Source: Fictibacillus terranigra
Lineage (GTDB): Bacteria > Bacillota > Bacilli > Bacillales > Fictibacillaceae
NCBI RefSeq assembly: GCF_030412265.1
Contig: NZ_JAUHLN010000001.1
Location: forward strand, 1,240,001 to 1,304,000
DNA length: 64,000 nucleotides
Reading direction: 5' to 3'
The translations under genes were made by a program, and so were the position numbers. The notes beneath the pieces are model-generated. The model was given only the letters and a program-made list of their open reading frames with translations, was not told the origin of the DNA and made no database searches. Below are positions 13,610 to 53,026 of the stretch, in pieces. How positions within the stretch are numbered: the first letter of the stretch is position 1; each line of letters opens with the position of its first letter.

Positions 13610-14650
13610 ATGAAAGCAAAAGTAGCGATTAATGGACTCGGGCGGATCGGAAGAATGGTTTTTCGTAAGATGATGGAGGAAAATAACGAGTTTGAGGTCG
13701 TAGCAATCAACGCAAGCTATCCTCCTGAAACGTTAGCACATATGATTAAGTATGACTCAATTCACGGCAGGTTTGATGGTGAAGTAACTGCCCATGAAGG
13801 CTACTTAATGGTGAGCGGGCAAAAAGTCCTTCTATTAAATTCTCGTGATCCAAGAGAACTGCCATGGAAAGGCCTCGGTATTGACATCGTAATCGAAGCT
13901 ACCGGGAAATTTAAGACAAAAGAAACAGCTGGCTACCATCTGCAGGCAGGAGCGAAAAAAGTCATCATCACGGCACCTGGAAAAGACGAAGATATTACGA
14001 TTGTTATGGGTGTAAATGACAGCGATTACAAAGCGGACGAACACCATATTATATCCAATGCATCATGCACGACGAACTGCCTGGCCCCTGTTGTGAAAGT
14101 GCTTGATGAACAGTTCGGTATTGAATCAGGGATGATGACGACGATTCATGCGTATACCAATGATCAAAGGAATATTGATAACCCGCATAAGGATCTCAGA
14201 CGTGCAAGGGCGTGCGGACAATCGATTATTCCAACGTCTACCGGTGCAGCAAAAGCCATTTCCAAGGTTCTGCCTCATCTCACTGGAAAATTGAACGGGA
14301 TGTCACTGCGCGTGCCCACTCCCAATGTATCCCTTGTGGATTTAGTTGTGGATCTAAAAACGGATGTGACAGAAGAGATGATCAATGACGCATTAAAGGC
14401 CGCGTCTGAAGGATCATTAAACGGTATTCTTGGATACAGCGAACAGCCGCTCGTTTCTATTGATTATAATGGCAATGAGCATTCTTCGATCATTGACGGT
14501 CTAACTACCATGGTGATTGAAAATAAAAAAGTAAAAGTACTCGCCTGGTATGACAACGAATGGGGCTATTCTTGCCGCGTTGTTGATCTTGCAGGCCTTG
14601 TGGCTTCGGGTTTAGCTCAAAAAGCAGACATGAAGATTGCTTCCTTATAA
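13610..14650 (+). CDS. gapB: Gluconeogenic glyceraldehyde-3-phosphate dehydrogenase GapB
   Basis: A 346-residue GAPDH. The NAD(P) glycine motif is NGLGRIGR; the catalytic Cys lies in SNASCTTNC (about residue 156) with His in TTIHAYTNDQ (about 183). Where glycolytic GapA has Asp after the second beta strand (VNDLT), this protein reads INASYPPETL, the signature of GapB enzymes that prefer NADP and work in the gluconeogenic direction. ATG at 13610 follows GGAGGG. It sits before speD as in B. subtilis, but here a strong terminator and a new promoter separate them. CcpN control is likely. Confidence 0.93.
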   Translation: MKAKVAINGLGRIGRMVFRKMMEENNEFEVVAINASYPPETLAHMIKYDSIHGRFDGEVTAHEGYLMVSGQKVLLLNSRDPRELPWKGLGIDIVIEATGKFKTKETAGYHLQAGAKKVIITAPGKDEDITIVMGVNDSDYKADEHHIISNASCTTNCLAPVVKVLDEQFGIESGMMTTIHAYTNDQRNIDNPHKDLRRARACGQSIIPTSTGAAKAISKVLPHLTGKLNGMSLRVPTPNVSLVDLVVDLKTDVTEEMINDALKAASEGSLNGILGYSEQPLVSIDYNGNEHSSIIDGLTTMVIENKKVKVLAWYDNEWGYSCRVVDLAGLVASGLAQKADMKIASL

Positions 14651-14666
14651 AAAAACTTGAATGGAA

Positions 14667-14705
14667 AAACGGATGGCGCCGGCTTGCGGCTCCATCCGTT
14701 TTTTC
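14667..14705 (+). terminator. Terminator after gapB
   Basis: AAACGGATGG paired with CCATCCGTTT, extended by GCCG/CGGC after an unpaired base on each side, then TTTTCTCA. Confidence 0.85.
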
Positions 14706-14783
14706 TCATTTTCCGAACAAATTCCACCTTGTAAAGCGTTTACTTTTTACATAAAAATTTAAAGGGAAATTTCAAACTAATTA

Positions 14784-14812
14784 TTGCAAATGAAAAATAA
14801 AACAAGTATACT
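14784..14812 (+). promoter_or_regulatory. speD promoter
   Basis: TTGCAA (14784-14789), a 17-bp spacer, TATACT (14807-14812). A start near 14819 gives a leader of about 140 nt. Confidence 0.7.
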
Positions 14813-14866
14813 ATGATTCGTGAACTTCAAATAAAGCAAACCAAGGCGTTGGATTCTACTTAAAGG

Positions 14867-14950
14867 GTTAGGACCTCTTAGGACTAACTTTCCCCCGTGG
14901 TAGGTGTTCAATACCGCATGCTTGAAGGCATGAAAAATTTTTAAGGGGGA
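14867..14950 (+). promoter_or_regulatory. Structured speD leader that can sequester the ribosome site
   Basis: A first hairpin pairs GTTAG (14867-14871) with CTAAC (14884-14888), with an inner CCT/AGG. Then UCCCCC (14891-14896) can pair with GGGGGA (14945-14950), which is the ribosome site of speD. Inside that helix lie two hairpins packed end to end: GTGGTA (14897-14902) with TACCGC (14912-14917), and ATGCT (14918-14922) with GGCAT (14927-14931) around loop TGAA. This makes a three-way junction closed over the ribosome site. It matches no RNA class I recognise; the paired segments were found by eye, not by folding software. Confidence 0.5.
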
Positions 14951-14960
14951 CTATGCTAAT

Positions 14961-15341
14961 ATGGATACAATGGGAAGACACGTAATTGCTGAACTTTGGG
15001 GATGCAACAGTGAAAAGCTGAATGACATGAGATTTATTGAAGAGACGTTTGTTGACGCTGCCCTTAGAGCAGGTGCAGAAATTCGTGAGGTTGCTTTTCA
15101 TAAGTTTGCGCCGCATGGCGTGAGCGGGGTTGTTATTATTTCTGAATCACATTTAACAATTCACAGTTTTCCAGAGCATGGTTATGCAAGCATCGATGTA
15201 TACACTTGTGGGGATCGTATTGATCCAAATGTGGCCGCTGATTATATTTCACAGGCTTTGGAAGCAAACAGCCGTGAAAATCTAGAGGTTCCACGTGGAA
15301 TGGGTCCTGTTAAAGTTAAAAATAAAGTTGCCGCTAATTAA
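14961..15341 (+). CDS. speD: S-adenosylmethionine decarboxylase proenzyme
   Basis: A 126-residue pyruvoyl-dependent SAM decarboxylase of the short (class 1B) type; it makes the aminopropyl donor for spermidine. Self-cleavage is expected before Ser in the motif [16 protein letters not shown] (about residue 63), leaving the pyruvoyl group; the conserved Cys is in VYTCGD (about 83). ATG at 14961 gives the family N-terminus MDTMGRHV, with AAGGGGG 12 nt upstream, a rather long spacing that fits controlled initiation. It is transcribed from its own promoter with a long folded leader. Confidence 0.93.
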
Positions 15342-24428: not shown

Positions 24429-24688
24429 ATCAATTGGATACCAAAATCAGTAAAGATAAGGACAACGGATATTTTTTACGGTTTATAGAGAGAGATGCCT
24501 GAGGCTGGAAGCATCTTAACACGGAAAAATTTCTTACCCCCTTTGAACTTCAGCGGTGAAGCAAAGTAATCGCTGACGGCCCAAAGCCGTTAATTCTTGA
24601 CCGAGTGCCATTGCACAATAGTGCGGTGGAACAAGGGTGGAACCACGAGTACAACACTCGTCCCTTTTTGTGGACGGGTGTTTTTTGT
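24429..24688 (+). promoter_or_regulatory. Threonyl T-box riboswitch of thrS
   Basis: The leader contains the T-box core GGGTGGAACCACGA (24635 on), whose UGGA pairs the free 3' end of uncharged tRNA. The terminator pairs ACACTCGTCC (24654-24663) with GGACGGGTGT (24672-24681) before a T run. The probable specifier codon is ACC (24536-24538), positioned by analogy with the pheS leader in this window, and it reads threonine, consistent with thrS downstream. Confidence 0.9.
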
Positions 24689-26791: not shown

Positions 26792-26991
26792 GGTAATTAA
26801 ATAGTTGAGTTTCGAACCAAAGCAGAAGCACCCGCTTCTCACCTGTCCAACGCGTACGCAGTTGGCTGGTCGACCGAACTTTCAGAAATGATGATGAGGT
26901 AGTGTGGGTGCAGTATGCGCCGACGCTTTTTTATTTGTTTACAAAATGCTGAGTGGAACTGACTCACATAAATTCTTGGAGGTGACTTACT
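26792..26991 (+). promoter_or_regulatory. L20 leader (infC-rpmI-rplT autoregulatory RNA)
   Basis: A leader of about 200 nt lies between the promoter and infC. It ends in an attenuator: GTGTGGGTGC (26902-26911) pairs with GCGCCGACGC (26917-26926), with G-U pairs and one mismatch, followed by seven T. Position and internal hairpins agree with the Firmicute L20 leader, where ribosomal protein L20 binds its own mRNA and promotes premature termination. Confidence 0.8.
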
Positions 26992-33444: not shown

Positions 33445-33703
33445 AGCTGAATGAATGAAATGCAATGATGGAGAGTAGTACATAAAAGCTCGCCGCCAAG
33501 GGAGGAAACATCTCGACTGAAAGTGTTTCTGCGGTAGAATTTATCGAATTCACTCCTGAGCAGTCGCCTGAACCGACAGTAGGGCGGACCGGACCAAGTC
33601 CGTTATGTGAACGAAGTGAACAAGTGAAGGCCTTGGCCTGAAAACTTGGTAAATCTGGGTGGTACCGCGAATCCTCGTCCCTTTTATGGACGGGGATTTT
33701 TTA
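33445..33703 (+). promoter_or_regulatory. Phenylalanyl T-box riboswitch of pheST
   Basis: Specifier TTC (33549-33551, Phe) lies in GAATTCACTCCTGAGC; the T-box core is GGGTGGTACCGCGA (33657-33670). The terminator pairs AATCCTCGTCC with GGACGGGGATT and ends in a T run (to about 33703). Uncharged tRNA-Phe would favour the antiterminator. Confidence 0.93.
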
Positions 33704-52737: not shown

Positions 52738-53026
52738 TAGAGCGCCATACTTCAGTTTTGAAGTGATGGTAGAGGAGCAAAAACCAATAGTATGCTATCT
52801 GAAGAGAAGGAGCTCTTATGATGGTAGCGGAAAGGGGATTTTTGCCGAAGCTTTAAGAAGCTCCTGTTTCTTACGGCTGGACCTGCATTGAATAAATGCA
52901 GAGCTGTCACACATTCTTGCCCGGAGGGTGTGTGGAGGACTATCTCACAAGAGGGGAAAACAAGCTGGCTTACTGTTGCTTATACCAAGCAGCAATAAGG
53001 TCTTTTCCTTATTGCTGCTTTTTTAT
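52738..53026 (+). promoter_or_regulatory. Lysine riboswitch (L-box) of lysC
   Basis: Core L-box signatures occur in order: AGAGGAGC (52771 on), TCTGAAGAGAAGGAGC, GATGGTAGCGGAAAGGGGA and GCCGAAG. The expression platform ends in the terminator AAGCAGCAATAAGG (52987-53000), loop TCTTTT, CCTTATTGCTGCTT then a T run to 53025. Lysine binding is expected to favour termination. Confidence 0.93.

Follow-up and report, generated by a model that had tools for sequence, protein, structure and literature searches.

The gene speD, which encodes a SAM-consuming enzyme of the polyamine pathway, is preceded in Fictibacillus terranigra by a leader of about 140 nt. The question raised by this locus is whether that leader holds a regulatory RNA, how such an RNA is built and how it might act on the gene. 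We analyzed it within a 64,000-nt stretch of the genome (the window; contig NZ_JAUHLN010000001.1, positions 1,240,001 to 1,304,000) together with the leaders of speD in other genomes. An earlier note on this DNA had proposed a structured cis-regulatory leader in which the ribosome-binding site serves as a switch strand. Our findings support this proposal, with a pairing that differs from the one drawn.

The speD leader and its conserved core

The 5′ neighbor of speD is a glyceraldehyde-3-phosphate dehydrogenase gene (13610-14650; Pfam), which by gene order is gapB. A GC-rich hairpin with a T run after it lies 3′ of this gapB-like gene at 14660-14705; it was seen in the sequence, was not listed by the terminator scan and is probably the terminator of that gene. 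Promoter-like boxes of speD's own are found at 14784 and 14807, and the transcript probably starts near 14819. Outside the window, the same genome has one more SpeD-like match, a distant one with 38% identity (G000, contig C8, 1435029-1435292). The only match to the core in this genome is the copy in the window, before speD. The features of the locus are:

14784-14812, + strand: speD promoter, with -35 box TTGCAA (14784-14789), 17-nt spacer and -10 box TATACT (14807-14812); 9 of 12 consensus bases.
14819-14838, + strand: 5′ arm of the likely outer rod P0 (CGUG 14819-14822, CUUCA 14825-14829, AGCA 14835-14838), predicted by constrained folding to pair with 14919-14932.
14845-14854, + strand: 5′ strand of P1b, a predicted outward extension of P1 pairing with 14906-14915 (constrained fold, arm swap).
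14856-14859, + strand: 5′ strand of P1, CUAC; four of four pairs changed on both sides, 96.3% of cells paired.
14865-14871, + strand: 5′ strand of P2, GGGUUAG; three of eight pairs changed on both sides, 98.3% of cells paired.
14872-14883, + strand: apical part of P2, GACCUCUUAGGA (alignments A1 and A6).
14884-14890, + strand: 3′ strand of P2, CUAACUU (alignment and covariation test).
14892-14896, + strand: CCCCC, the putative anti-Shine-Dalgarno within the P1 loop, partner of 14945-14949; kept in all 98 true rows of alignment A6.
14900-14903, + strand: 3′ strand of P1, GUAG (same covariation test as the 5′ strand).
14906-14915, + strand: 3′ strand of P1b (constrained fold, arm swap).
14917-14932, + strand: hairpin P4, CAUGC-UUGAAG-GCAUG, whose bases can instead serve as the 3′ strand of P0 (compensatory stems elsewhere; constrained fold).
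14945-14949, + strand: GGGGG, core of the speD Shine-Dalgarno (SD) sequence and putative pseudoknot partner of CCCCC (SD comparison across leaders).
14961-15341, + strand: speD, S-adenosylmethionine decarboxylase proenzyme, 126 aa (Pfam AdoMet_dc, E 1.9e-39).

The speD leader holds a real RNA family that is absent from Rfam 15. Its core is 48 nt long (14856-14903), with P1 enclosing both the hairpin P2 (14865-14890) and the free CCCCC. Judged from the aligned sequences, the conserved architecture is P1 plus P2 with a predicted loop-to-SD pseudoknot. The hairpin that the earlier note placed ahead of its junction is P2, now the center of the element. In most sequences the first two pairs of P2 are G-U wobbles, and its loop varies in sequence and length (alignments A1 and A6); a tandem G.A in the apical part is possible. 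In one leader, L224 (G835), the P2 loop carries about 50 inserted nt and the remaining core is intact, indicating that the loop tolerates inserts.

Conservation was assessed first among close relatives and then more widely. A SpeD match was found in 94 of the 100 genomes searched, the window's own genome included, and the 110 loci of SpeD relatives gave 94 distinct upstream regions. A strict pattern for the middle part of the core, CUACUUAAAGGGUUAGGACCUCnnnGGACUAACUUUCCCCCGUGGUAG, matched 92 of these; L064 carries one substitution and the motif is absent in L065. Among 51 distinct cores (alignment A1), 27 of 51 columns were invariant, in rows chosen by a pattern that fixes part of P2 and whose first form missed two of the 94 leaders; alignment A2 leaves out seven of the 51 rows, which have a shifted P1. 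Since the leader patterns demand parts of the core, and one of them demands CCCCC, constancy in the sets picked by pattern arises partly from selection. The model alignments, unlike those leader sets, were not pattern-picked. They were built successively from 79, 98 and 100 loci, with L224 left out of A5 and A6 for its long insertion. The last of them, A6, has 100 rows, 95 of them distinct, including two chance rows (L265 and L266). In its 98 true rows 10 columns were invariant and 18 were conserved at 95% or above.

Pairing was supported by covariation, which for P1, like the conservation above, goes far past what chance would give. All four P1 pairs had changed on both sides in 79 aligned cores, and in the 100-row alignment such changes were found in four of four P1 pairs and three of eight P2 pairs. 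Over P1 and P2 together, 132 cells were changed on both sides; shuffles gave 34.8 such cells, and sliding the partner strand left 4-20. P2 is constant in sequence as well as in pairing. In the lineage of G665, where SpeD is 45% identical to that of the window, AAAGGGUU, GACUU, CCCCCGU and GGGGG are kept, but with a wholly different P1 stem, ACGCC/GGCGU. Covariation of the kind that the earlier note had called for is present in P1 and P2, and the 5′ leader has the conserved, structured and covarying domain expected of a riboswitch.

The ribosome site and the outer helices

UCCCCC (14891-14896) and GGGGGA (14945-14950) are present and complementary, as had been noted before. As CCCCC is located in the loop of P1, its pairing with the GGGGG of the SD would form a pseudoknot. 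Every one of the 204 distinct leaders that bear the core has an SD with at least five G's; a script established this for 198 of them, using a pattern that demands CCCCC, and the remaining six, in which the start had been set too far in, were read by eye. For comparison, 80 named loci contain 112 further ORFs with an SD, none of which is SpeD, and 16 of these have GGGGG, as do four of the 33 other SDs of the window. GGGGG also occurs in six of nine speD leaders that match neither recognized pattern, among them L183, a type B leader (see below) that the pattern missed. In the sequences compared we looked for covariation between CCCCC and GGGGG and found none, so that support for this helix comes from co-invariance. 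The evidence for it is weaker than that for P1, given this lack of covariation and the GGGGG in six of nine leaders without a pattern. As an expression platform the leader thus offers SD complementarity, by co-invariance, and a terminator-like site in a subset of leaders. Four speD leaders, L178-L181 (G160, G162, G153 and G048), are without the core; GGGGG is present in the ribosome site of all but L180.

When CCCCC and GGGGG were held unpaired, most of the representative folds among those listed took the shape of a long rod; in it, the 5′-most bases of the transcript, CGUGAACUUC, pair directly upstream of the SD. For statistics on its arms, 136 core-bearing leaders were reduced to the 132 with a -10-like box (loose pattern), then to 79 representatives and to the 71 with arms of at least 20 nt. 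Cognate rod arms paired with a mean energy of -15.3 kcal/mol versus -11.6 kcal/mol for swapped arms (z -10.3; 71 leaders, in a statistic that ignores kinship), and the proximal arms, P1b, with -7.25 versus -4.82 kcal/mol (z -10.0, again ignoring kinship). Against its own shuffled arm, the cognate rod arm scored a mean z of -2.3. The cognate arm was the single best of the 71 in only five cases, with a median rank of 11. Because kinship is ignored and the cognate arm is so seldom the best, we grade the outer rod P0, predicted by folding, as likely rather than proven.

Some 5-bp hairpin is found at the P4 position in 86 of the 204 leaders, and its main stems are compensatory between lineages (CAUGC/GCAUG in 52 leaders, CUAGC/GCUAG in 7, CCGGC/GCCGG in 3 and CCAGC/GCUGG in 3). 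The second of two abutting hairpins in the earlier drawing is therefore real in a subset of leaders; in the window the 5′ end is an alternative partner for its strands. P0 and P4 use the same strand there (14917-14932) and are mutually exclusive.

Distribution, known families and a sister form

We searched for the core with two models. At E ≤0.001, model R1 found one copy each in 244 of 299 genomes of the order and matched 9 of 398 genomes of a phylum sample. With the limit relaxed to E ≤1 it matched 101 of 200 genomes of the class, a count that includes the order. In the class of G665 it matched 18 of 121 genomes at this limit, and in 14 of those SpeD lies directly downstream. The second model, R2, added G622 (E 1.7e-8) and G703 (E 1.0e-7), both from outside the training set and both directly before SpeD; its nine weakest matches (E ≥4.6e-4) were without SpeD. 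Together the models gave 155 loci, and in all 137 that have SpeD the core lies no more than 250 nt upstream of it. The other 18 are all weak matches and were judged to be chance (R1, per-genome E ≥0.0123: L176, L198-L201 and L242-L245; R2, E ≥4.6e-4: L265-L273). SpeD of the distant lineages is 41-48% identical to that of the window (16 loci compared). In a hand tally of the 77 genomes covered by both the SpeD and the R1 searches, 70 had both, six had neither, one (G048) had SpeD only and none had the core only. Any SpeD match was found in five of the 20 listed order genomes that are without the core, beyond which stand 35 further negatives. The only gene found downstream of the core was speD, and the gene set thus does not single out a ligand.

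The absence of a known riboswitch class, suggested earlier from the sequence, was borne out: Rfam 15 at the gathering threshold gave no match over the leader. That the search works is clear from its four matches in other parts of the window, all on the + strand: a lysine riboswitch, two T-box leaders and an L20 leader (52762-52950, 33456-33685, 24444-24668 and 26814-26938). Relaxing the search to E values of up to 10 in 14650-15050 gave 11 sub-threshold matches, none covering the core. A T-box or ribosomal-protein leader was rejected for speD, as those models match only elsewhere in the window, and SAM-I and its spermidine variant gave no covariance-model match at the leader. Eight further loci had no Rfam match at gathering score. 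Six of them are speD loci without an R1 match (L178-L181, L183 and L184), where a SAM-I variant replacing the element had been considered. We found no description of this motif in the literature surveyed, which covers published motif lists in part, and an earlier mention is possible.

SAM-I riboswitches are built on a four-way junction. The preQ1 and SAM-II riboswitches form an H-type pseudoknot between a strand in a loop and the Shine-Dalgarno region. The speD element likewise would pair a loop strand with the SD, but differs from these two in having no Rfam match, in the insertion of P2 into the P1 loop and in an anti-SD that is an invariant CCCCC. Variants of SAM-I that respond to spermidine and act as OFF switches are linked to speD, speE and speB in other Gram-positives; this validated class is based on 13 rare variants, and the authors anticipate further classes (PMC10853860). 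The two systems are alike in their polyamine genes, speD included, in their Gram-positive hosts and in a feedback OFF logic, which for the speD element is proposed here; they differ in that the spermidine riboswitch comprises 13 examples of SAM-I type, whereas the speD element has a small core, a predicted loop-to-SD pseudoknot and no SAM-I match (PMC10853860). The odc1 (uORF-25-1) motif of alpha-proteobacterial ornithine decarboxylase genes, with its conserved 11-aa uORF, is similar as a polyamine-gene leader with a pseudoknot and the RBS inside a helix that was proposed as a possible riboswitch; the speD element differs in being found in Bacillota and in having no conserved uORF across the core (PMC8632094). 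Finally, a 79-nt B. subtilis RNA labeled "Unknown or speD leader region" was pulled down by Hfq (RPKM ratio 14.1; PMC3574147). It lies in the same speD-gapB gap and is possibly the same transcript as the speD element; the accessible portion of that source gives a co-precipitation peak only, without structure, family or function (PMC3574147).

A sister form, type B, is found in the order of G387, possibly Paenibacillales. Here the scaffold UAGGAACCAGGAUUCACU ... AGUGAAUGACGUAGGUCCUAGCG ... CCUAGGAAGGGGG holds a different inner domain, CAGGACAU...AUGUUGCGAGAG...CCCUCG. This arrangement is seen, slightly varied, in the 30 best SpeD loci of that order, and 17 of 20 further leaders from the order are also type B by eye. 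R2, a model of type A (the form in the window), recognized none of the 30 type B loci tested. The CCCUC of type B is also able to pair with GGGGG. The type B leaders are L274-L318, L320 and L321, in which the outer scaffold and the GGGGG SD are kept and the inner core differs. In other families of the class (e.g., L225-L233) the same scaffold surrounds a type A core, and with either type held by one scaffold the inner domain looks exchangeable. Tentatively, and at a little less than an even chance, we suggest an ancient superfamily of polyamine-pathway riboswitches, specific to speD in Bacillota, with one outer scaffold and SD pseudoknot and exchangeable inner domains. Type A, the form in the window, occurs in many families of its class, in the class of G665 and, with G622 and G703, in one more family of the phylum; in the order of G387 its place is taken by type B (CAGGA...CCCUC). 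Each type may respond to a signal of its own, e.g., spermidine for one and decarboxylated SAM (dcSAM) or SAM for the other.

A candidate switch on translation and its alternatives

Reading these patterns as regulation, we lean slightly towards feedback control of speD by a cis-acting riboswitch at the level of translation. The core would bind a small molecule and become compact, with P1 and P2 presenting CCCCC to the SD. The resulting H-type pseudoknot would hide the ribosome site, and SpeD would not be made. In the ON state CCCCC would be held elsewhere (e.g., by the GGG of P2, 14865-14867) or P1 would open, letting translation start. Translation control is the best supported level because SD complementarity is common to all core-bearing leaders. 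As for the ligand, spermidine is our best guess by analogy, followed by dcSAM or SAM, since speD makes the dedicated aminopropyl donor for spermidine. A second reason is the speD-associated, spermidine-responsive SAM-I variants described elsewhere (PMC10853860).

The core could instead bind a protein, whether a dedicated regulator or SpeD itself, which would fix CCCCC to the SD and repress translation with no metabolite involved. The sequence conservation of P2 resembles that of protein sites, and the Hfq pull-down in B. subtilis involves an RNA labeled as unknown or speD leader region (PMC3574147). Yet the core persists where SpeD is only 41-48% identical and where P2 has changed in length and in sequence above its base. 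This persistence is why we favor a metabolite, and we regard control by a protein as unlikely.

Transcription attenuation in place of SD control was considered next, with P4 (14917-14932) and the U tract at 14938-14942 as terminator and P0 as antiterminator. P4 and the following AAAAAUUUUU (14933-14942) form a terminator-like site in the window (scan: one versus 0.3 expected), and P0 and P4 exclude each other. Such a site follows CCCCC in 38 of the 204 core-bearing leaders, versus three of 204 after one shuffle each, and by the same rule 35 of the 52 leaders whose P4 is of the CAUGC/GCAUG type are terminator-like. However, the other 166 leaders are without it while SD complementarity is kept in all 204, the stem is short (six pairs, three of them G-C), and in the window five A's stand between stem and U's. 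As the main mechanism, attenuation thus appears quite unlikely. In P4-bearing lineages, the window included, P4 and the U tract may nonetheless add a terminator that the 5′ arm of P0 would break up, so that attenuation may act there as well as, or instead of, translation control.

We give a similarly small chance to a constitutive element, in which the pseudoknot or rod would set a fixed, low level of translation or shield the 5′ end from decay without sensing anything. Known 5′ stabilizers pair the first transcribed bases, as the predicted rod does, and speD may need a tight but constant dosage. Simple hairpins would suffice for this, however, and the 10 invariant and 18 nearly invariant columns kept across classes would be needless. 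Control by a trans-acting small RNA or by a leader peptide is very improbable. The Hfq association in B. subtilis (PMC3574147) would fit the first, and an ATG/GTG/TTG frame that crosses the core in some leaders would fit the second. But such a frame spans the core in only 62 of the 204 leaders, core length modulo 3 is not constant (174/19/11 of 204), and covarying P1 and P2 helices would not be expected in a plain pairing target.

The three-way junction of the earlier note, UCCCCC:GGGGGA closing over two hairpins that abut at 14896/14897 and 14917/14918, is indeed the nested minimum-energy fold of 14819-14980 together with the preceding hairpin, but is hardly credible, since this fold is no better than shuffled sequence (-35.9 versus a mean of -36.21 kcal/mol, z 0.08, with 103 of 200 shuffles folding at least as well), CCCCC:GGGGG with GUGGUAG pairing downstream is the nested minimum in only 14 of 79 representative leaders, and its first hairpin is not conserved and takes up the GUAG strand (14900-14903) of the covarying P1.

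If the speD leader proves to bind no small molecule, a core so conserved would still need a regulator, and none is named in the literature surveyed. If, as we lean towards, it is a riboswitch, and if its signal is spermidine or dcSAM, the class would be far more common than the spermidine-responsive SAM-I variants, being present in 70 of the 71 SpeD-bearing genomes of the order covered by both searches. Polyamine riboswitches have long been sought, and the speD leader is a candidate that can easily be tested in Bacillus.
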